Assembly: GCA_027618995.1 (NCBI GenBank) | Contig: JAQCGO010000002.1 | Span: 62,001 to 126,000, forward strand | Source of the DNA: Pseudomonadota bacterium | Lineage (GTDB): Bacteria > Pseudomonadota > Gammaproteobacteria > Steroidobacterales > Woeseiaceae | Direction of reading: 5' to 3' | Length of the DNA: 64,000 bases | Shown: positions 4,832-12,991 of the stretch, one piece after another | Layout of the letters: each line of letters starts with the position of its first letter | Numbering within the stretch: the stretch's first letter is position 1 | Translations under genes and position numbers: made by a program | The notes under the pieces: generated by a model | Database searches by the model: none | What the model was told of the DNA's origin: nothing | The model's input: the letters and a program-made list of their open reading frames with translations, nothing else

Positions 4832-6988
4832 TCAGCGGCCCGTGCGCGGTGGCAAGCCGGTGTGCTGGGTTAACAGCTTGCCCTTGCGAACTCGTTTCTC
4901 ATGCGCCGCGGCGGTATTTTTTCGGCGTGGCGATGCAGTGGCTTTGGCAACAGGTGGCTGATCCTTCGGCACCAGTTTGCCACTGCCAGACCCTATCAGA
5001 TGGCCAAGATTCATCTCACTGAGTGCCGCACGTATGAGCGGCCAGTTCTTCGCATCGTGGTAACGCAACAAAGCTTTGTGCAGGCGCCGCTGCTCCGGGC
5101 TCTTGACGATCTCAACACTGTCACTCTTATAAGTCACCTTGCGCAAGGGGTTCTTGCCCGAGTGATACATCGCCGTCGCGGTCGCCATCGGCGACGGGTA
5201 AAACGCCTGCACCTGGTCAGCGCGGAAGTTATTCTTCTTCAGCCACAGCGCCAGGTTGACCATGTCCTCGTCGGTCGTGCCCGGGTGTGCGGCTATGAAG
5301 TACGGGATCAGGTACTGTTCCTTGCCCGCCTCCTTTGAAAACTTCTCGAACAACTCCTTAAACTTGTCATAGGCGCCGATGCCGGGCTTCATCATTTTGT
5401 CGAGCGGGCCCTTCTCCGTGTGCTCAGGTGCGATCTTGAGATAACCGCCGACATGATGCGTAACGAGTTCCTTCACATACTCCGGATCCTCGACCGCGAG
5501 GTCGTAGCGTAGTCCCGAGGCGATCAATACTTTTTTCACACCCGGCAACTTGCGTGCCTTGCGATACAGGGCTGTTAGCGACGAATGATCGGTATTCAGG
5601 TTGCTACAGATACCCGGGAACACGCAGCTCGGCAGCCGGCACGCCGCTTCGATCTCGCGGCTCTTGCAGGCGAGGCGATACATATTCGCCGTCGGCCCGC
5701 CAAGATCGGAAATAACGCCGGTGAATCCGGGCACCGTGTCGCGAATTTTTTCGATCTCTTCGAGTATCGATTCCTCGGAACGATTCTGGATGATCCTGCC
5801 TTCGTGCTCGGTGATCGAACAAAACGTGCAGCCGCCGAAACAGCCACGCATGATGTTGACCGAGAATCGAATCATTTCGTAGGCTGGTATATTTGCTTCG
5901 CCGTAGCGCGTATGCGGCACGCGCGTGAATGGCATGCCGAACACATAATCCATTTCATCGGTGCTCAGCGGTAACGCCGGCGGATTCATCCACAGATCAC
6001 GGTCGCCGTGTGCCTGCACCAGCGCGCGCGCATTGCCCGGGTTGGTCTCGAGGTGCAACACGCGATTCGCATGTGCATAGAGTACGGCATCGTTGCGCAC
6101 CTTTTCGAACGACGGCAAACGAATCACAGTGCGACTTCGATTGCGCCGCGCATCGGGGACGAAGCGCAACACGTTATCGTCGCTCTTCGGACCCTCATCC
6201 TGTTTAGTTGCGCAGGCTTTACTATCCTGCGTATTTACATACGGGCTTACAATCTGGTCAACGCGCCCGGGCCGGTCGATGCGGGTCGAGTCGATCTCCC
6301 ACCAGCCCTCCGGCCTGTCGTTACGAATAAACGCAGTGCCGCGTACGTCGGTAATTTCGTCAACCCGTTCGCCACGTGCGATGCGGTGCGATAACTCGAC
6401 GATCGCCCGCTCGGCATTGCCATAGATCAGGATGTCAGCGCTCGCATCGAGCAGGATCGAGCGCCGCACACTGCCCTGCCAGTAATCGAAATGTGCGATC
6501 CGGCGCAACGATGCTTCGATGCCGCCGAGAACGACCGGCACATCTTTGAAAGCTTCCTTGCAGCGCTGCGAGTACACCAGCGAACAACGATCAGGCCGTT
6601 TGCCACCGACGCCGCCCGGCGTGTAGGCATCGTCGTTGCGAACTTTCTTGTCCGCCGTGTAGCGGTTGATCATGGAATCCATGTTGCCGGCCGCAACGCC
6701 GAAGTACAGATTCGGCTTGCCGAGCTGCTCGAAGTCGGCCTTCGAATGCCAGTCGGGCTGCGCGATGATGCCAATCCGAAAACCGTTCGCCTCAAGCAGG
6801 CGACCGATGATCGCCATGCCAAAGGACGGATGGTCCACGTAGGCGTCGCCTGTGACGATGACGATGTCGCAGGAATCCCAGCCCAACGCGTCCATTTCCG
6901 CCCGCGACATCGGCAACTGCGGCGCGGTACCGAAGCATTCAGCCCAGTATTTGTTGTGACCGTAGAGTGTAGTGGCAGGCGTTGGCAT
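4832..6988 (-). CDS. ygiQ: YgiQ family radical SAM protein
   Basis: A 718-residue member of the YgiQ/UPF0313 family, whose function is not established. The radical SAM cluster motif C-x3-C-x2-C is present as CFGGCTFCS in the middle of the protein, followed by SITEHEGR. The N-terminal block ([23 protein letters not shown]) and the [16 protein letters not shown] block are specific to YgiQ. The basic C-terminal tail ([17 protein letters not shown]) is usual. The length fits the family. It lies 9 bases downstream of the APC permease gene and is probably co-transcribed with it. Confidence 0.93.
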
Positions 6989-6997
6989 CAGTCGGTG

Positions 6998-8317
6998 TCA
7001 TTCTGGCGGTCGTTGATGATACCCTTTGCGAGCGAAAACCGCGTAAATTGCCAGCCCGGCCGCGATCACGCCGAGGCCAAGCATCGATTCGGCAGGCTTG
7101 TCGAGGAGCACAAAAACCAGCGTCCAGGCGGTCAGCGCAAGGTACAGCAGCGGCGTCAGCGGGTAGGCAAATGTTTTAAACGGACGCGGCAGGTCAGGCT
7201 GCCGGATGCGCAGCACGAACACCCCGAGCACCGTCGCGAAACTGTTCAGCGCCAGGATGAAGCCGGCAAACACGAGCACCGATTCGAAACTCGAGGTCAG
7301 GATGAACAGGATCGCGAGCGACGACTGCACCAGGATCGCGGTGGCCGGTACTCCGTCGCGGTTGGTGCGTGCCAGTGCGCCGAGGCCACGGACGTCCTGG
7401 CCGATCACCTGCAATACACGAGGGCCGGCGATCGTCATGGCGCTGACGGTGGATATCAGCAGCAGGCTCAAGATCAGCCCGGAAAACCGCCCGCCGGCTT
7501 CGCCGAACGCAGCATCGGCGGCGATATAGCCCACCTCGACCTGCCCACTCAAGGTGTCCATGGGTGCGACCCGCAGGAACACATAATTCAGCGCCAGGTA
7601 CAGCAGCATCACGAGCAGGGTGCCGCCGCCGAGTATCCACGGCAGCGTGCGCTGCGGGTTCTCGAGTTCACCGCTGAGATAGGTCGCCGCGTTCCAGCCC
7701 GTGTAGGCATAGCTGACATAGATCAGCGACACTGCGAATGCGCCACTGGACAACAATCCAAGATCACCGGCAGCCGGTGTAAAACGAACCGGCTCTGCGA
7801 CGTCGGCCCACCAGAGCGCGCCGATGCAGAAAAGCACGATGACGGCGACTTTCAGGACGGTGAACATCACTTGCAGGCCGCCACTGTTGCGCCGCGTGCT
7901 GCCGTGCACCATTGTCAGCAACAGGATCAGGCTGCAAGCCAGCGCCTTCTGTGCCAGCGGGTCCACGCCGCCCGGCAGCGCGGAGCTCGCATAGGCGGCG
8001 AAAGTCATTGCAGCGAGCGCGGTCGGCCCGGCAAAGCCGACGGTCGCGGACACCCAGCCCGAGACAAAGCCGATCGCCGGATGGTAAATCCGGGTCAGGA
8101 AGTTGTACTCGCCGCCCGAGCGCGGCATGGCAGCACCGAGCTCGGCATAGGTCATGGCGCCGCACAGCGCGACGACGCCGCCGACGGCCCAGAGCATCAG
8201 CAGCACGAATCCGGAGCGAATATTGAGCAACTGGAAGCCGAGGCTCGTGAATACGCCCGTGCCAACCATGTTGGCGATGACCACGGCCGTAATCGTCGTG
8301 TGGCGAAATTTACGCAT
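6998..8317 (-). CDS. APC-family amino acid permease
   Basis: A 439-residue protein with about twelve membrane helices, of the amino acid-polyamine-organocation superfamily. The first helix carries the unwound GVFTSLG motif expected in the substrate site (ANMVGTGVFTSLG at about residues 16-28). YAELGAAMPRSGGEYNFL is the conserved cytoplasmic-loop signature of SteT/LAT-like members. Substrate is not predictable in detail; neutral or basic amino acids are likely. It is immediately upstream of ygiQ. The gene seems intact and GC-rich like the chromosome, in contrast to the island that begins about 200 bases upstream. Confidence 0.88.
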   Translation of the reverse strand: MRKFRHTTITAVVIANMVGTGVFTSLGFQLLNIRSGFVLLMLWAVGGVVALCGAMTYAELGAAMPRSGGEYNFLTRIYHPAIGFVSGWVSATVGFAGPTALAAMTFAAYASSALPGGVDPLAQKALACSLILLLTMVHGSTRRNSGGLQVMFTVLKVAVIVLFCIGALWWADVAEPVRFTPAAGDLGLLSSGAFAVSLIYVSYAYTGWNAATYLSGELENPQRTLPWILGGGTLLVMLLYLALNYVFLRVAPMDTLSGQVEVGYIAADAAFGEAGGRFSGLILSLLLISTVSAMTIAGPRVLQVIGQDVRGLGALARTNRDGVPATAILVQSSLAILFILTSSFESVLVFAGFILALNSFATVLGVFVLRIRQPDLPRPFKTFAYPLTPLLYLALTAWTLVFVLLDKPAESMLGLGVIAAGLAIYAVFARKGYHQRPPE

Positions 8318-8517: not shown

Positions 8518-9618
8518 CTATTGCAGGATTGTTTTCGGGACAAAATTATTGATTGAACTGTGCAAATCATGTAGTCGCAATAGACGAGCGGCCAAATCTT
8601 CCAGGTCAAATTTGTTGGCTTTATTCAAGACGGGCAGATAATTGCCTGGTAGTGCTTCAACGCCATGCAGGGCACCTACGATGGAGCCAACCATGGTTGC
8701 AACTGTGTCGGTATCATTACCAATGTTCACTGCTGCCAGAATTGCCGATTCAGGGTCATCTCCGCAACACGCCAATATGCCAAACACCGCAGGCACGGCC
8801 TCACTGGCATGAAGGCCTGACCCGATGATGTCTGCGAGTTCCGACACGGCCGTTTCCCAGGAAGCATGCTTTTGCCCGATTTGAATCGCGAGTTCAATCC
8901 TTCGGGCGACACTCGGCCCAGCCATCATCGTCGCACCCTGTTGCTCTGCGTAAGCGTAACCCTGATCAGCACCTTTGATTGCTGCGTCCAAAACGTCTCT
9001 TAGTTTTGTTCCATCTGAAAGAGCGGCATTTACCGCTGTTGAAACGGCACAGGCCCCTGAAACGGAAATCACGTTGTTGTGAGTAAATCGCGCTATTTCA
9101 TAGGTCGTAGTGATCAAATCATCCGGCTCGCTTAGTGAAACCAACGAACAAGACCATGCTTTCATTGCCGCACCGTTGGTCGCCGATGCATTGCCTTTGT
9201 TGACAAGGGCAACTCCCTGAGCTGGCTCGCCTGCTTCGACACTACCCTGTAAAGACTGCCGTGTGTCGTCAAAGATGCGCTGCATTGCTGCTCGGGTGGT
9301 TGGGCCGGTAAAGTTTGGATAGAAAGGGAAGTCCATCCAGCGCTTGAAGGCTTCTTTCAATACATCATCATTGATTTCGCCGTCATGGTCTAAAACAGCT
9401 TCCAGGATAAATCGGCCTTGAGTGAAGTCGTCAGTAACCATGCCCGCATCATTGCAGCGTCCAAAGGTGTCCTGTGGCGGCACAACAAATGTTGTAACCC
9501 ACCCGTTAAAATCCCTCTTAATCTGTTCAATTGTTCTTAACTCTGTTGCCGCACCCATCGCATCGCCTGCGGCAGCTCCAACCAGGCTTCCCAGAACCTT
9601 ACTTTTTAGTGTAGACAT
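8518..9618 (-). CDS. ADP-ribosylglycohydrolase family protein (YegU/DraG-like)
   Basis: A 366-residue all-alpha enzyme of the ARH/DraG family, which hydrolyses N- or O-glycosidic bonds of ADP-ribosyl or ribosyl groups with two Mg ions. The metal-site motifs are present: GAAAGDAMGAATE near the N-terminus, TDDFTQG at about residue 62, and GNDTDTVATMVGS at about 300, equivalent to the DxD of DraG. It overlaps the downstream partner kinase gene by 13 bases. Association with a sugar kinase and a sugar permease, as in E. coli yegTUV, points to catabolism of a small ribosylated compound rather than reversal of protein ADP-ribosylation (inference). Confidence 0.88.
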   Translation of the reverse strand: MSTLKSKVLGSLVGAAAGDAMGAATELRTIEQIKRDFNGWVTTFVVPPQDTFGRCNDAGMVTDDFTQGRFILEAVLDHDGEINDDVLKEAFKRWMDFPFYPNFTGPTTRAAMQRIFDDTRQSLQGSVEAGEPAQGVALVNKGNASATNGAAMKAWSCSLVSLSEPDDLITTTYEIARFTHNNVISVSGACAVSTAVNAALSDGTKLRDVLDAAIKGADQGYAYAEQQGATMMAGPSVARRIELAIQIGQKHASWETAVSELADIIGSGLHASEAVPAVFGILACCGDDPESAILAAVNIGNDTDTVATMVGSIVGALHGVEALPGNYLPVLNKANKFDLEDLAARLLRLHDLHSSINNFVPKTILQ

Positions 9619-10544
9619 TCCGACCCTTTCTCTTTGATGAACCTATTTAGTGTGACCAGATTTGGTAATGCAGACATCGCACCTTTTTTTCCTACAACTA
9701 ATGCACCACATGCATTGGAAAACTCAACAGCTTCAATCAATTCAGCGTCAGACCAGTTTTCTAACGGCATGAGTTTACTTATAAAGGCAGCAATAAATGC
9801 ATCTCCAGCGCCTGTCATGTCAACAACTGGAACGTTAAACCCTTCAACCTGAAATTCGGACTGTCCGGTTAACAGGATTGCTCCCTTTTGTGCTCTGGTA
9901 ATAATCTTGATCCTTGCGGGCCACCGCTTGACCTTTTCAATCCCTTCTTCGACAGAATCCGTATTCGCCAGAAGGAATAGCTCATGCTCAGACATTTTGG
10001 CTATATCAGCCATCTTCAGGGCATCTGTCGTTGTTGGAACTAACAGCGATCTGTCATCCCACCTGTCAATGCGCATATTCGCATCAACACAAACGATCAA
10101 GTCTGCCATTTTCGCCTGCTTGATCGCGTGCAAAGTAGCTTCTCTCGATGAGCGCTGAGAGAGCATGAAGGAGCTAACGCAAAGCCACTCGCCCCTTTCG
10201 AAAGCAGGAATATCTGAGCTTTCCAACTGAGAATCGGCGCTTGGTTTCTCCATGAAGGTAAACTCTCTCTCGCCTGCGCTATCAACCGAAATCCCGACTA
10301 CTCCTGTCCTGTAACCGTCGCTATAGGATATGTGCTGCGTATTGACGTTTTCCCGTTTGAGTTTGTCTACCAGCAAAGCGGCATGAGGGTCATTGCCAAG
10401 TTTGGTTATCAGGGCGGTTCTGACACCTAGCCTTGACAACGCCACTGAAACGTTAGCCCCGGTCCCCCCGGGAAGTTCCAACTGCGTATTACCTTCTCGT
10501 ATCAGGTCGATCGCAGCGTCACCAATTACCCAACATTGCGACAT
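9606..10544 (-). CDS. PfkB-family carbohydrate kinase (YegV/ribokinase-like)
   Basis: A 312-residue ribokinase-fold kinase. The substrate-side motif LPGGTGANVSVALSRLG is near residues 24-40. The C-terminal signature DMTGAGDAFIAAF, with the catalytic aspartate of GAGD, is near 245-257. Family members phosphorylate ribose, fructose, nucleosides or related sugars. It lies between the transporter gene (8 bases upstream) and the ADP-ribosylglycohydrolase, so it likely phosphorylates the sugar released by that enzyme. There is no signal peptide. The AT-rich codon use matches the other island genes. Confidence 0.9.
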   Translation of the reverse strand: MSQCWVIGDAAIDLIREGNTQLELPGGTGANVSVALSRLGVRTALITKLGNDPHAALLVDKLKRENVNTQHISYSDGYRTGVVGISVDSAGEREFTFMEKPSADSQLESSDIPAFERGEWLCVSSFMLSQRSSREATLHAIKQAKMADLIVCVDANMRIDRWDDRSLLVPTTTDALKMADIAKMSEHELFLLANTDSVEEGIEKVKRWPARIKIITRAQKGAILLTGQSEFQVEGFNVPVVDMTGAGDAFIAAFISKLMPLENWSDAELIEAVEFSNACGALVVGKKGAMSALPNLVTLNRFIKEKGSECLH

Positions 10545-10552
10545 GTTTCGGC

Positions 10553-11899
10553 CTACCGAGAATCCGCCAACTTCAGGTCGGATGCGATTTCACTGTAGTA
10601 GTCATTGCTAATCAGGTATTTGCGCATTATCAGGCCGACCGCCAGGTGGAAGAAGGCAGGAATGATTGTGACCATTGACGCAAGTCCATTTAGCGTAAAT
10701 TCACTCTGTTCTGCATCGGCTTGATAATTGAAGTAGCTGAGCAAGTATCCCAAGAGCCCGCCCGCAACACCCATGCCGAACTTCTGGCAGAAAGAAACTC
10801 CGCCGAACGCTAACCCGGAAACCCTGATGCCGGTTTTCCTATGCCCATAATCAACGGCTTCTGCAATGGATGACCAGAAGATCGGTGAATACAGGTCAGC
10901 AGCGAACCAGATCAGGAATGTAAACAGAAAAGCCAGAACCATGTCGTCCTGACCAACGGTAAAGTACATTGCGATAGACAGGATAAAGGTCAGGAGTTGG
11001 CTGTATCGGAAGAGTCGTATTTTGCAGTAAAACTTGGTGATCCAGGTGCTGGCTATCATTGCCAGGATAGAGGCGGTAACGCCCGTTGTTAAGAATGGTG
11101 AGATGAGTGCGTCGCCGCCGTTCAAATAGTACTTGGCGTAGTACGGTGCCACAGAGCCTCTAATTACAAAGCCGCACATCAGGAAAATCAGGGCAGCACA
11201 CAAGAGAATCCACTGGTCATTTCTTAATAGCAAACTGACTTGCTCTTTGAGCCCAATTTTCGCAATTATCGGTTTTATTCGTTCTTTTGTAGTGAAGAAG
11301 CAAACCAGGAACAGTAGTGAGCCTAATATCCCCATCAGGCCCATTGCAGGCTGATAGCCGTCACGCATATTCCCTTCGCCCAGATACAGAGCCAGGGCGG
11401 GAACCACTATGGTCACAAGAAATGCGGCGATTTTTACAAGAACGAAACGGTAGCCGTTGGCGCTCAGTCGTTCTACCGGGTCGTTTGTAATGACACCAAT
11501 TAGTGAGATGTATGGAATCGTTACAATCGTGAAGAGCAGGGTGAGCAGAGTATAGCTAAAGTAGGCCCATGCCAATTTGTACGAATAAGCGACATCTGGA
11601 GTGATAAACGCAAGATAAACAGCTACGCCAAAAGGTATGGCAAACCACAACATGAACGGCCTGTAGTGACCATGCTTACTGTTGCACCGGTCTGTGATGA
11701 TGCCCATAACCGGATCAGAAAATGCATCGATCAAGCGCACAACGATAAACAGAACAGCCATATCAGAAGTGTCCAGGCCGTAAATATCGGTGTAAAAGTA
11801 GGCAATGATCAGTTGCATGGTAATAATGACAATATTGACTGCCATATCACCGGCGCCAAACCCTAACTTTTCTGTAATGCTAAGTTTCATCTCACTCAT
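10553..11899 (-). CDS. GPH-family (MelB-like) glycoside-cation symporter
   Basis: A 448-residue, twelve-helix major-facilitator-superfamily protein of the glycoside-pentoside-hexuronide family. The cation-site motif of MelB-type carriers is clear in helix II (RLIDAFSDPVMGIITDR, about residues 51-67). It is the first gene of the three-gene island operon and presumably imports the substrate. The corresponding transporter in E. coli yegTUV (YegT) is of the nucleoside-symporter type, so the transporter class has been exchanged here. Two possible ATG starts are four codons apart; the first is used. Confidence 0.9.
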   Translation of the reverse strand: MSEMKLSITEKLGFGAGDMAVNIVIITMQLIIAYFYTDIYGLDTSDMAVLFIVVRLIDAFSDPVMGIITDRCNSKHGHYRPFMLWFAIPFGVAVYLAFITPDVAYSYKLAWAYFSYTLLTLLFTIVTIPYISLIGVITNDPVERLSANGYRFVLVKIAAFLVTIVVPALALYLGEGNMRDGYQPAMGLMGILGSLLFLVCFFTTKERIKPIIAKIGLKEQVSLLLRNDQWILLCAALIFLMCGFVIRGSVAPYYAKYYLNGGDALISPFLTTGVTASILAMIASTWITKFYCKIRLFRYSQLLTFILSIAMYFTVGQDDMVLAFLFTFLIWFAADLYSPIFWSSIAEAVDYGHRKTGIRVSGLAFGGVSFCQKFGMGVAGGLLGYLLSYFNYQADAEQSEFTLNGLASMVTIIPAFFHLAVGLIMRKYLISNDYYSEIASDLKLADSR

Positions 11900-12053
11900 T
11901 AAGAGAGCCTTGTCACGTGCCGAGACGTTGGGTGTTTGTTTGTAAATTATCAGGTTTTTTTCATGTCCAACTGTAAAGGTATTTTGAGGGATTATGGGGT
12001 CAGAGTAAAAACTATTTGCCGGGTGCAGGGCCGCGCTTGAGTGGGCGCTGCGG
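11900..12053. other. Intergenic region upstream of the island operon
   Basis: About 150 AT-rich bases without a coding frame. Near 11990-12010 it contains TGGGGTCAGAGTAAAA, a sequence typically seen at the ends of REP-associated (Y1) transposase modules. A GATAAT lies on the minus strand but has no well-spaced -35, so no promoter is called. The island operon must start here, and no regulator gene is present. Confidence 0.4.
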
Positions 12054-12179: not shown

Positions 12180-12290
12180 CCTACTCATGGCGAAAAGCAA
12201 TCCTTTCAATGAACTAGCAAACAGCAGACGGGTCAGCTTTCAATGCAAAAAATGGCTGTTTTTGGATTACATTTCGGTGCAAATCAACAC
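12180..12290 (-). mobile_element. Possible IS21-type terminal segment
   Basis: On the minus strand this stretch starts TGTTGATTTGCACCGAAA directly after the broken amidohydrolase codon. A second, related unit follows (TTTTGCATTGAAAGCTGACCC). Paired 'GCACCGAAA.../GCATTGAAA...TGACCC' units just inside a TG terminus are what I know from IS21-family ends upstream of istA. No transposase frame remains. The assignment is from pattern memory only. Confidence 0.35.
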
Positions 12291-12515
12291 CTCGAGATCA
12301 ATAACCGTATACGCGGTCGGAATCCTGGCGTCAGCCTCTGCAATGCGTTCGATCCTGCCGTCTTTAACCAGGACAGTTACATTTGGCTGGACCCGATTGT
12401 CGACACCATTGAACAGGTTCGCGTTGGTGAGCGCGTAAGCGTGATCCTGAGCGCCGGCTTGCAGCCAGCAAACCAGGGCGAGAAGCGCGGTAGGTGCGCG
12501 TTGTGTCTTTTTCAT
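12291..12515 (-). pseudogene. N-terminal fragment of an exported amidohydrolase
   Basis: The ATG at 12513-12515 overlaps the stop of the YaiI gene by 4 bases. A signal peptide ([23 protein letters not shown]) is followed by TNANLFNGVD and VLVKDGRIERIAEAD, the N-terminal beta-sandwich of imidazolonepropionase-like amidohydrolases. These proteins then normally read 'VIDLEGxxLLPGLIDxHxH'. Here the frame breaks right after VIDLE, at 12290, where the IS-like sequence begins. The metal-binding domain is entirely lost. The gene was evidently a downstream member of the Mth938-like/YaiI operon before being cut. Confidence 0.65.
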
Positions 12516-12991
12516 GGTGTGTTCCCGGTATCGGTAGCGCTGCGCGGATGCCGCGCCAGGAAGCGATCGAGATTGTTGGCGAATGCCTGGCGGTCGCTTT
12601 GCGTCAGTGGTGGTGGGCCACCGCTCGTGTCGACGCCGCTGCTGCGCATCGTGTCCATAAAGTCGCGCATGTTCAGGATCGCCTTGATGTTCTCCGTTGA
12701 ATACATTTCACCGCGCGGATTCAGCGCGTGACCGCCATTCTCTATCACTTCGGCGGCCAGCGGAATATCCGCCGTGATGACGAGGTCACCAGCCGCCGCG
12801 CGCTTGACGATCTCATGGTCTGCTATATCGAATCCGGAGGGCACCTGCACCGTCCTGATGAATTCCGACGACGGCACCCGCATGGGCTGATTTGCGATCA
12901 GGGTTAGTTGCGTGCGGGTTCGTTCGGCCGCCCTGAACAATATCTCCTTGATGACAACCGGACAGGCGTCCGCGTCGACCCAGATCTGCAT
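12512..12991 (-). CDS. yaiI: YaiI/YqxD family protein (DUF188)
   Basis: A 159-residue protein of the UPF0178 family, which has a PIN-like fold and no assigned function. The N-terminus [24 protein letters not shown] with its clustered acidic residues is the family hallmark, as are [15 protein letters not shown] and [14 protein letters not shown]. The full family length is present. It follows the Mth938-like gene by one base and overlaps the truncated amidohydrolase by four, so the three formed an operon. Confidence 0.93.

Follow-up and report, generated by a model that had tools for sequence, protein, structure and literature searches.

What does an enzyme with the fold of the ADP-ribosylglycohydrolases (ARH) do in an operon whose other two genes encode a sugar transporter and a sugar kinase? 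The question is posed by three adjoining genes in a 64,000-nucleotide stretch of DNA (the window: contig JAQCGO010000002.1, positions 62,001 to 126,000) from a bacterium of the Woeseiaceae. The open reading frame list and its coordinates, together with a Pfam scan, give the following layout, in the order of transcription.

10553..11899, minus strand: first gene, a GPH-family (MelB/YagG-type) cation symporter of 448 amino acids (PF13347, 4.4e-94)
10545..10552, minus strand: 8-bp gap between the GPH and PfkB genes
9606..10544, minus strand: middle gene, a PfkB-family kinase of 312 amino acids, similar to fructokinases and aminoimidazole riboside (AIRs) kinases (PF00294, 1.4e-52)
9606..9618, minus strand: 13-bp overlap between the end of the kinase gene and the start of the ARH gene
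8518..9618, minus strand: last gene, an ARH-fold hydrolase of 366 amino acids (PF03747, 6.1e-57)

All three genes exceed their Pfam cut-offs, and the three families, the tight operon, the overlap and the gap described in the original prediction, which was made from the DNA letters, are borne out. The overlap makes translational coupling of kinase and ARH likely. No GntR gene lies among the four flanking genes scanned around the triplet, and to that extent the reported lack of this regulator holds. The likeness to the gene order of E. coli yegT-yegU-yegV does not, for the window reads transporter-kinase-ARH whereas yegTUV reads transporter-ARH-kinase.

Proposed function of the triplet

The answer put forward here, to which we give an even chance, is that the triplet is a self-contained, mobile uptake-and-degradation cassette for a furanosyl (most likely ribofuranosyl) compound, in which import is followed by phosphorylation and then by cleavage. 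The GPH symporter, to judge from its family, would bring in the intact glycoside; the PfkB kinase would phosphorylate the 5-OH (the 6-OH in the case of a fructoside) of the uncut molecule; and the two-metal ARH would then hydrolyse the C1 bond of the phosphorylated furanose to give ribose-5-phosphate (or its equivalent) and the aglycone, the resulting sugar phosphate passing into central metabolism. What the analysis shows is the gene set and its recurrence, intact catalytic residues, the tie of the clade to a phosphorylating partner, the motif that accompanies it and the exchange of kinase and transporter for a PTS; the reactions in this organism and the identity of the sugar are inferred. 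Phosphorylation probably precedes cleavage because a phosphotransferase system (PTS) replaces transporter and kinase in 3 of 24 related loci, and because the Salmonella kinase STM4066 acts on an intact riboside.

The first of these arguments comes from 24 plasmid or E. coli loci, hand-chosen with one or two per organism type, which span 18 of 18 genera in one listing and 18 of 21 in another (all but Rhodothermus, Halocatena and one halophilic archaeon). A PfkB gene is found in 21 and a PTS in three, with no locus having both and none having neither. The PTS is of the mannose type in Klebsiella (CP067510) and of the bgl type, EIIBCA, in Listeria (LR134400) and Enterococcus raffinosus (CP081847). 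On either of the two trees described below the PTS label involves two changes, the Klebsiella ARH lying within the window's own subclade and those of Listeria and Enterococcus elsewhere. Operons of the bgl type have a phospho-glycosidase at the place where the Listeria and Enterococcus loci have an ARH. The Listeria operon, presumably bvrABC, resembles the window in that its ARH belongs to the window's side of the tree and supplies the enzyme in an operon for a sugar, and differs in that a PTS stands in for the GPH and PfkB genes. A PTS phosphorylates its sugar while importing it, and therefore the cytoplasmic ARH of the PTS operons would have to meet a phosphorylated sugar; if there is one chemistry per ARH clade, the kinase versions would phosphorylate first too. 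Transporters vary across the partnered loci as a whole, with GPH, NHS (YegT), NCS1, several ABC kinds and PTS all represented. In Photobacterium (L165) an opposite-strand fruA-like PTS gene, some 2 kb past the kinase, was not counted as a partner.

Two known types of pathway follow the same plan, in that a PfkB enzyme acts on an intact glycoside or Amadori compound before a second enzyme cleaves it. These are psuT-psuG-psuK, the pseudouridine pathway, and the fra/frl systems, where cleavage falls to PsuG or to a deglycase in place of an ARH-fold enzyme. In Salmonella, FraD kinase is described as acting ahead of the FraB deglycase (PMC4941530). For the window kinase and its STM4065-4067-type relatives, phosphorylation of the intact glycoside is in print only for STM4066 of Salmonella, with AIRs (PMC3161100). 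The original prediction had envisaged a catabolic, non-signalling use of the ARH fold, in the order import, cleavage and phosphorylation. The catabolic use stands as the likeliest reading; cleavage ahead of phosphorylation is not supported, given the PTS loci and STM4066.

Recurrence and relatives of the triplet

Do the three genes belong together? The original prediction depended on it, and they were found side by side in six other genomes and, with a GntR gene, in Salmonella. One scan of genome contigs gave eight ARH relatives, six of which (L011-L016) are in full GPH-PfkB-ARH triplets; order and strand are kept in all six of these loci, where the ARH is at least 77% identical to that of the window (77-84%, with 82-87% for the GPH). 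All six are metagenome-assembled, five being labelled Woeseiaceae or Gammaproteobacteria and one Alteromonadaceae. The two remaining relatives, from Oscillospiraceae, have tandem ARHs plus a PfkB gene. This recurrence is far above chance.

In a plasmid collection, Salmonella records carry the series 'MFS transporter - aminoimidazole riboside kinase - ADP-ribosylglycohydrolase - GntR', which we take to be the STM4065-4068 locus, a reading that fits the published operon. That operon is described as STM4065-4066-4067, with AIRs kinase activity of STM4066 on the intact riboside (PMC3161100). It has the three families of the window on one strand in matching order, with 68% identity for the GPH and 59% for the ARH, but the kinases share just 33% and the ARH gene of Salmonella is followed by a GntR gene that the window lacks. 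The ARHs of the window, L011-L016, Salmonella and Klebsiella form a nine-row subclade with support of 100. Counted on the three-gene core, with GntR treated as dispensable, the window triplet is by sequence comparison orthologous to STM4065-4067. If anything has been exchanged or has strongly diverged it would be the kinase, since its 33% identity to STM4066 compares with 68% and 59% for its companions.

The original prediction had instead seen a yegTUV cassette with an exchanged transporter. Family scans do place the window transporter in GPH and not with the NHS-type YegT. The E. coli operon also combines transporter, ARH and PfkB, and in the tree its ARH shares the window's side, on a separate branch. 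However, it has a nucleoside-type NHS transporter, a GntR repressor (yegW) and only 29% (ARH) and 25% (kinase) identity. STM4065-4067, with its equal order and its close GPH, is to be preferred as the point of comparison. Both types occur together in G007, a genome of the window's genus: L011 is its STM4065-type triplet, and L049:8223-11450 its operon of the yegTUV type. A sugar ABC transporter is encoded close to the yegTUV-type operon, as are, judged by eye, SIS-domain proteins and proteins like sugar epimerases or isomerases. The STM4065-4067 operon type is already present in known genomes, to which the window adds a regulator-free member. Its cassette is a plain form: across the loci neither a regulator nor any other accessory gene is constant.

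Individual copies have features of their own. The kinase frame of L011 (5204-6142) has one in-frame stop, through assembly error or decay. Directly behind the ARH in L012 (8048-10680) and L013 (5042-7686, by eye) are genes for an isochorismatase-like hydrolase, a short-chain dehydrogenase/reductase and a UrtA-like binding protein, the L012 hydrolase being RutB/biuret-hydrolase-like at a score under the cut-off; similar-looking ABC genes precede the triplet in L011. L015 has an adenosine deaminase gene (6121-7122, above the NCBIfam cut-off) divergent from the triplet. These neighbours were weighed as pointers to the aglycone and dropped, as they are not constant between loci.

Partner genes and the ARH tree

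How far does the association with phosphorylation extend through the family? The main tree contains 149 ARH rows, 49 from similarity searches and all 100 places of a survey, and a row was called partnered if it has, on its own strand and no more than 2.5 kb away, a PfkB or PTS gene, such genes being sought with our own seed proteins. A branch with support of 92 separates all 50 partnered rows (47 PfkB, 3 PTS), which make up 50 of the 74 rows on their side, from 75 rows with 0 partnered. Two short motifs go with them. GP[TS][TS] at positions 105-108 is present in 48/50 partnered and 6/99 unpartnered rows, and [TS]NG at 147-149 in 46/50 partnered rows, in 6/24 of the rows without a partner on the window's side and in 1/75 on the opposite one. 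GP[TS][TS] tracks the partner gene more tightly than the tree does.

An earlier tree of 93 rows was limited to seed-recovered frames and covered 48 of the 100 survey places, leaving out 52. It divided into 58 rows (PfkB 46, PTS 3, none 9) and 35 rows (none 35), a cleaner split than that of the 149-row tree, which is the one relied on. The smaller tree omitted L076, L116, L125 and L138 (under 270 residues) and the near-duplicates L033 and L054; the larger omitted L033, L054 and L210 (a broken frame) and read an in-frame stop in L106 as X. Both were 'quick' searches with support from the Shimodaira-Hasegawa-like approximate likelihood ratio test only, and the program flags a long-branch group (L085 plus 15 more; L104 plus one more) as a possible false join.

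The survey itself comprised 100 hand-picked neighbourhoods (60 of 113 matches in the phylum of genome G655 and 40 of 82 in Pseudomonadota), mostly kept clear of contig ends. A same-strand PfkB gene within 2.5 kb was found in five (L078, L081, L082, L084, L091). Given these five and the complete lack of PTS partners in the 100, the bulk of PF03747 is not of the partnered kind.

Several further loci have notable surroundings. The E. coli M8 locus (L054:5617-13861), whose ARH is matched in 404 of 5426 complete E. coli genomes, and L035 have the ARH between ygiN and parE together with GPH, GntR, SIS, PfkB, a phytase-like esterase and a KdgM porin, and a Yersinia ARH locus (L036) has a UshA gene; KdgM and UshA suggest that the pathway starts from an anionic compound, perhaps one resembling a nucleotide. 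In an Oscillospiraceae locus (L018:7913-13128) five tandem ARH genes lie beside a nucleoside-type ABC transporter and a PfkB-like kinase. On an L. plantarum plasmid (L050:3869-10241) genes for NUDIX, nicotinate phosphoribosyltransferase and isochorismatase-family proteins come directly before ARH - NCS1 permease - PfkB, which makes a link to breakdown products of nicotinamide adenine dinucleotide (NAD) possible. A Pseudomonas silvicola plasmid (L210:4560-8210) has a yegTUV/W-type set in which the ARH matches in two or more frames and looks broken.

The active site of the window ARH

What, then, is retained of the ADP-ribose pocket? The metal and catalytic positions of the window ARH are intact (E26, T62-D63-D64, D302-T303-D304-T305). 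The metal motif described for ARH3 is E...[T/S]DDT...DTDT (PMC6309922), and the window protein agrees with it except for F65, in place of T, after T62-D63-D64. It also has H180 and G149, and the clade signature as G105-P-T-T-R109 plus T147-N-G149. An AlphaFold model from a 14-row alignment has a mean predicted local distance difference test score of 87.5, with residues 129-141 below 50; its nearest solved fold is MJ1187 (1t5j, TM 0.72 by query and 0.87 by target), followed by ARH3 and DraG. Fold and binuclear metal site are shared with ARH3, ARH1 and DraG, from which the window ARH differs in its own GP[TS][TS] loop and in its linkage to transport and phosphorylation.

In ARH1 and ARH3 a histidine and a glycine backbone are described as holding the pyrophosphate beside the distal ribose, the adenosine being bound in various ways (PMC6309922). 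By alignment, combined with that paper's description, GP[TS][TS] and [TS]NG appear to map to the loop and turn of ARH3 that touch the pyrophosphate. A 5-phosphofuranoside is similar to the distal part of ADP-ribose, and the phosphate added by kinase or PTS would occupy the place of the ADP-ribose beta-phosphate in ARH1/ARH3. The ARH fold would therefore still read a 5-phosphoribosyl group, with the adenosine half dispensable. The Phe/Tyr pair that stacks adenine in ARH3 aligns with the non-aromatic V139 (N140 if ungapped) and A146 in a loop that is weakly aligned and poorly modelled. Position 103 is by spacing the putative counterpart of Asp97, an additional Asp near the metal in R. rubrum DraG; there 63% of the 35 other-side rows have Asp, and most of the 58 clade rows have F, L, V, I or Y.

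R240 was tried as a clade mark (95% versus 11%) and discarded, since ARH3 seems to share it in the alignment. The window's genome has three more, distant ARH matches, two on contig C11 (L008, L010) and one on C21. L008 and L010 have signal-like N-termini by eye, and L008 is on a very long branch, its TDD motif not aligned.

Weighing the explanations

Extended from the triplet to its relatives, the proposal becomes that the GP[TS][TS] clade (YegU, STM4067, the PTS-linked Listeria enzyme and the window ARH) consists of 5-phosphofuranoside hydrolases acting after PfkB or PTS and not of ADP-ribosylhydrolases, with different transporters feeding in different ribosides, perhaps the ribosyl leftovers of ADP-ribosylated proteins or NAD. 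This wider statement we hold more tentatively, at a little below even.

A number of observations weigh against phosphofuranoside hydrolysis. No published activity for any ARH of the clade was found in the open-access literature. A PTS occurs in just three loci of three genera and in none of the 100 surveyed neighbourhoods, so that the swap is a thin argument, suggestive and no statistical proof. On the window's side 24 of 74 rows are without a partner by the rule, L079 and L089 bear the signature with no kinase or PTS near, and on the other side L061 and L065 have an opposite-strand PfkB gene within 2.5 kb. H180 (69/74 window-side and 70/75 other-side rows) and G149 (71/74 and 69/75) fail to separate the clades and indicate that the pocket is kept, nothing more, while ARH1 also is without the ARH3 Phe/Tyr pair and yet binds ADP-ribose. 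Finally, the best solved relatives of the window kinase are fructokinase (5ygg/5ey7, 244-245 bits) and then 1tyy (171 bits), which we take to be the Salmonella AIRs kinase, so that the window kinase may act on free fructose. Most of the 24 unpartnered rows are the divergent long-branch group, which has no signature and whose joining to the window's side may be false. Among the others, L083 has a PfkB gene farther up its operon, two L018 copies are part of a tandem array near a kinase, and the L099 pair begins near a contig end.

The alternative that survives best is a sub-case overlapping with the proposal, in which the mechanism is the same and the sugar is a fructofuranoside or L-arabinofuranoside; we see it as possible if on the unlikely side. 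It would account for the fructokinase-like kinase and for the presence in Saccharobesus of a GPH transporter, 52% identical to the window's, within a cluster of GH43, GH127 and arabinanase genes, features by which fructose or arabinose is a possible sugar. Ribose is nevertheless favoured on account of the ARH fold and of the nucleoside-type transporters in sister operons of the clade, ARH enzymes being described as contacting ribofuranose hydroxyls through their metals (PMC6309922). The window kinase keeps GAGD at 245-248 and scores 280 bits with NCBIfam PRK09434, under the cut-off of 450. Many plasmid PfkB proteins about 38-41% identical to it are annotated as 'aminoimidazole riboside kinase', so that this name says little about what a kinase acts on.

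Slightly more doubtful is the scheme of the original prediction, that the ARH cuts the imported glycoside and PfkB phosphorylates the freed sugar. Which reaction comes first cannot be read from the gene order. The solved structure nearest to the window kinase is a fructokinase, and the fructokinase of Vibrio cholerae is described as acting on free fructose (PMC6240065). This scheme has to contend with PTS relatives that phosphorylate before a cytoplasmic ARH can act, and with a Salmonella kinase reported to phosphorylate the uncut riboside (PMC3161100). A salvage role, where the phosphorylated riboside is itself the useful product (as with AIRs for thiamine) and the ARH clears unwanted or alpha-anomeric material, is improbable. 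AIRs kinase activity is reported to meet the thiamine need of pur mutants (PMC3161100), E. coli yegTUV lies near thiD-thiM and ARH-PfkB pairs in other branches are accompanied by nucleoside- or nucleobase-type transporters; but no biosynthetic gene set was recognised by eye as travelling with the triplet, and the PTS versions resemble sugar catabolism. Least probable of all is an ARH working on ADP-ribosylated proteins or an ADP-sugar (ADP-ribose, ADP-glucose), to which the ARH3/DraG-like fold and metal sites, and reports that yegV deletion reduces glycogen and that ADP-glucose was tried as effector of the yegTUV repressor (PMC10819704, PMC6195507), lend something, but against which stand the linkage to transporters and kinases, the lack of any same-strand partner in the opposite 75 rows and a DraG model (TIGR02662) score of 81.9 bits at a cut-off of 337.

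Acquisition of the cassette

Is the phosphofuranoside cassette, as proposed here, also mobile? Its guanine-plus-cytosine (GC) content is 48.6%, against 59.3 and 59.2% in the flanks, and the triplets of L011-L016 have 40.6-47.3% against 50.2-56.1%; GC is lower in all six and, with the window, in seven of seven. The Salmonella triplet, at 54.4% against 50.7%, is not below its surroundings. Flanking genes vary by eye from one triplet copy to another. A close ARH (E below 1e-200) occurs in two of 37 searched genomes of the window's genus, its own and G007, and among 369 genomes sampled from the class the window's own alone matches the ARH at E <= 1e-25. At the DUF498 gene, synteny with the nearest relative there (G810) ends at window position 12987, beyond which G810 enters a frame resembling an M20 peptidase by eye, its contig ending 1.6 kb on; this break supports insertion without delimiting it. 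Because of the low GC, the differing flanks, the rarity in the genus and the synteny end, horizontal acquisition of the triplet is well supported, and the 'acquired island' of the original prediction is upheld.

Apart from internal or chance pairs, the ends of the island showed no repeats, direct or inverted. An empty site was sought through the YaiI gene in 61 genomes, all of the genus and the window's own among them, 38 of which gave a match; of 20 fetched places, none had any other of 11 window genes alongside. Two features lie upstream of the GPH gene.

11995..12009, plus strand: TGGGGTCAGAGTAAA, upstream of the GPH start, the sole exact copy in its own genome, with no role assigned
12267..12515, minus strand: open frame of 82 amino acids similar to an amidohydrolase N-terminus (NagA_N in Pfam, below the cut-off)

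Matches to the 82-residue frame in genomes G032 and G824 sit within frames of 413 and 475 amino acids respectively, and it is possibly the right-hand edge of the acquired stretch.

Implications for the family

YegU, STM4067 and their relatives are annotated as ADP-ribosylglycohydrolase in many genomes. For E. coli yegTUV the account in PMC10819704 gives no assigned substrate, and an STM4067 mutant is reported to have reduced persistence in the pig gut (PMC3161100). No publication proposing phosphofuranoside hydrolysis for this ARH clade was found in the open-access literature, and a clade of 'ADP-ribosylglycohydrolases' that are phosphofuranoside hydrolases would, if shown, be new. If it is true that the clade cleaves phosphorylated ribosides, many 'ADP-ribose' annotations would be wrong, and the reading in which phosphorylation comes first supplies a testable substrate class and order of steps for the whole clade.

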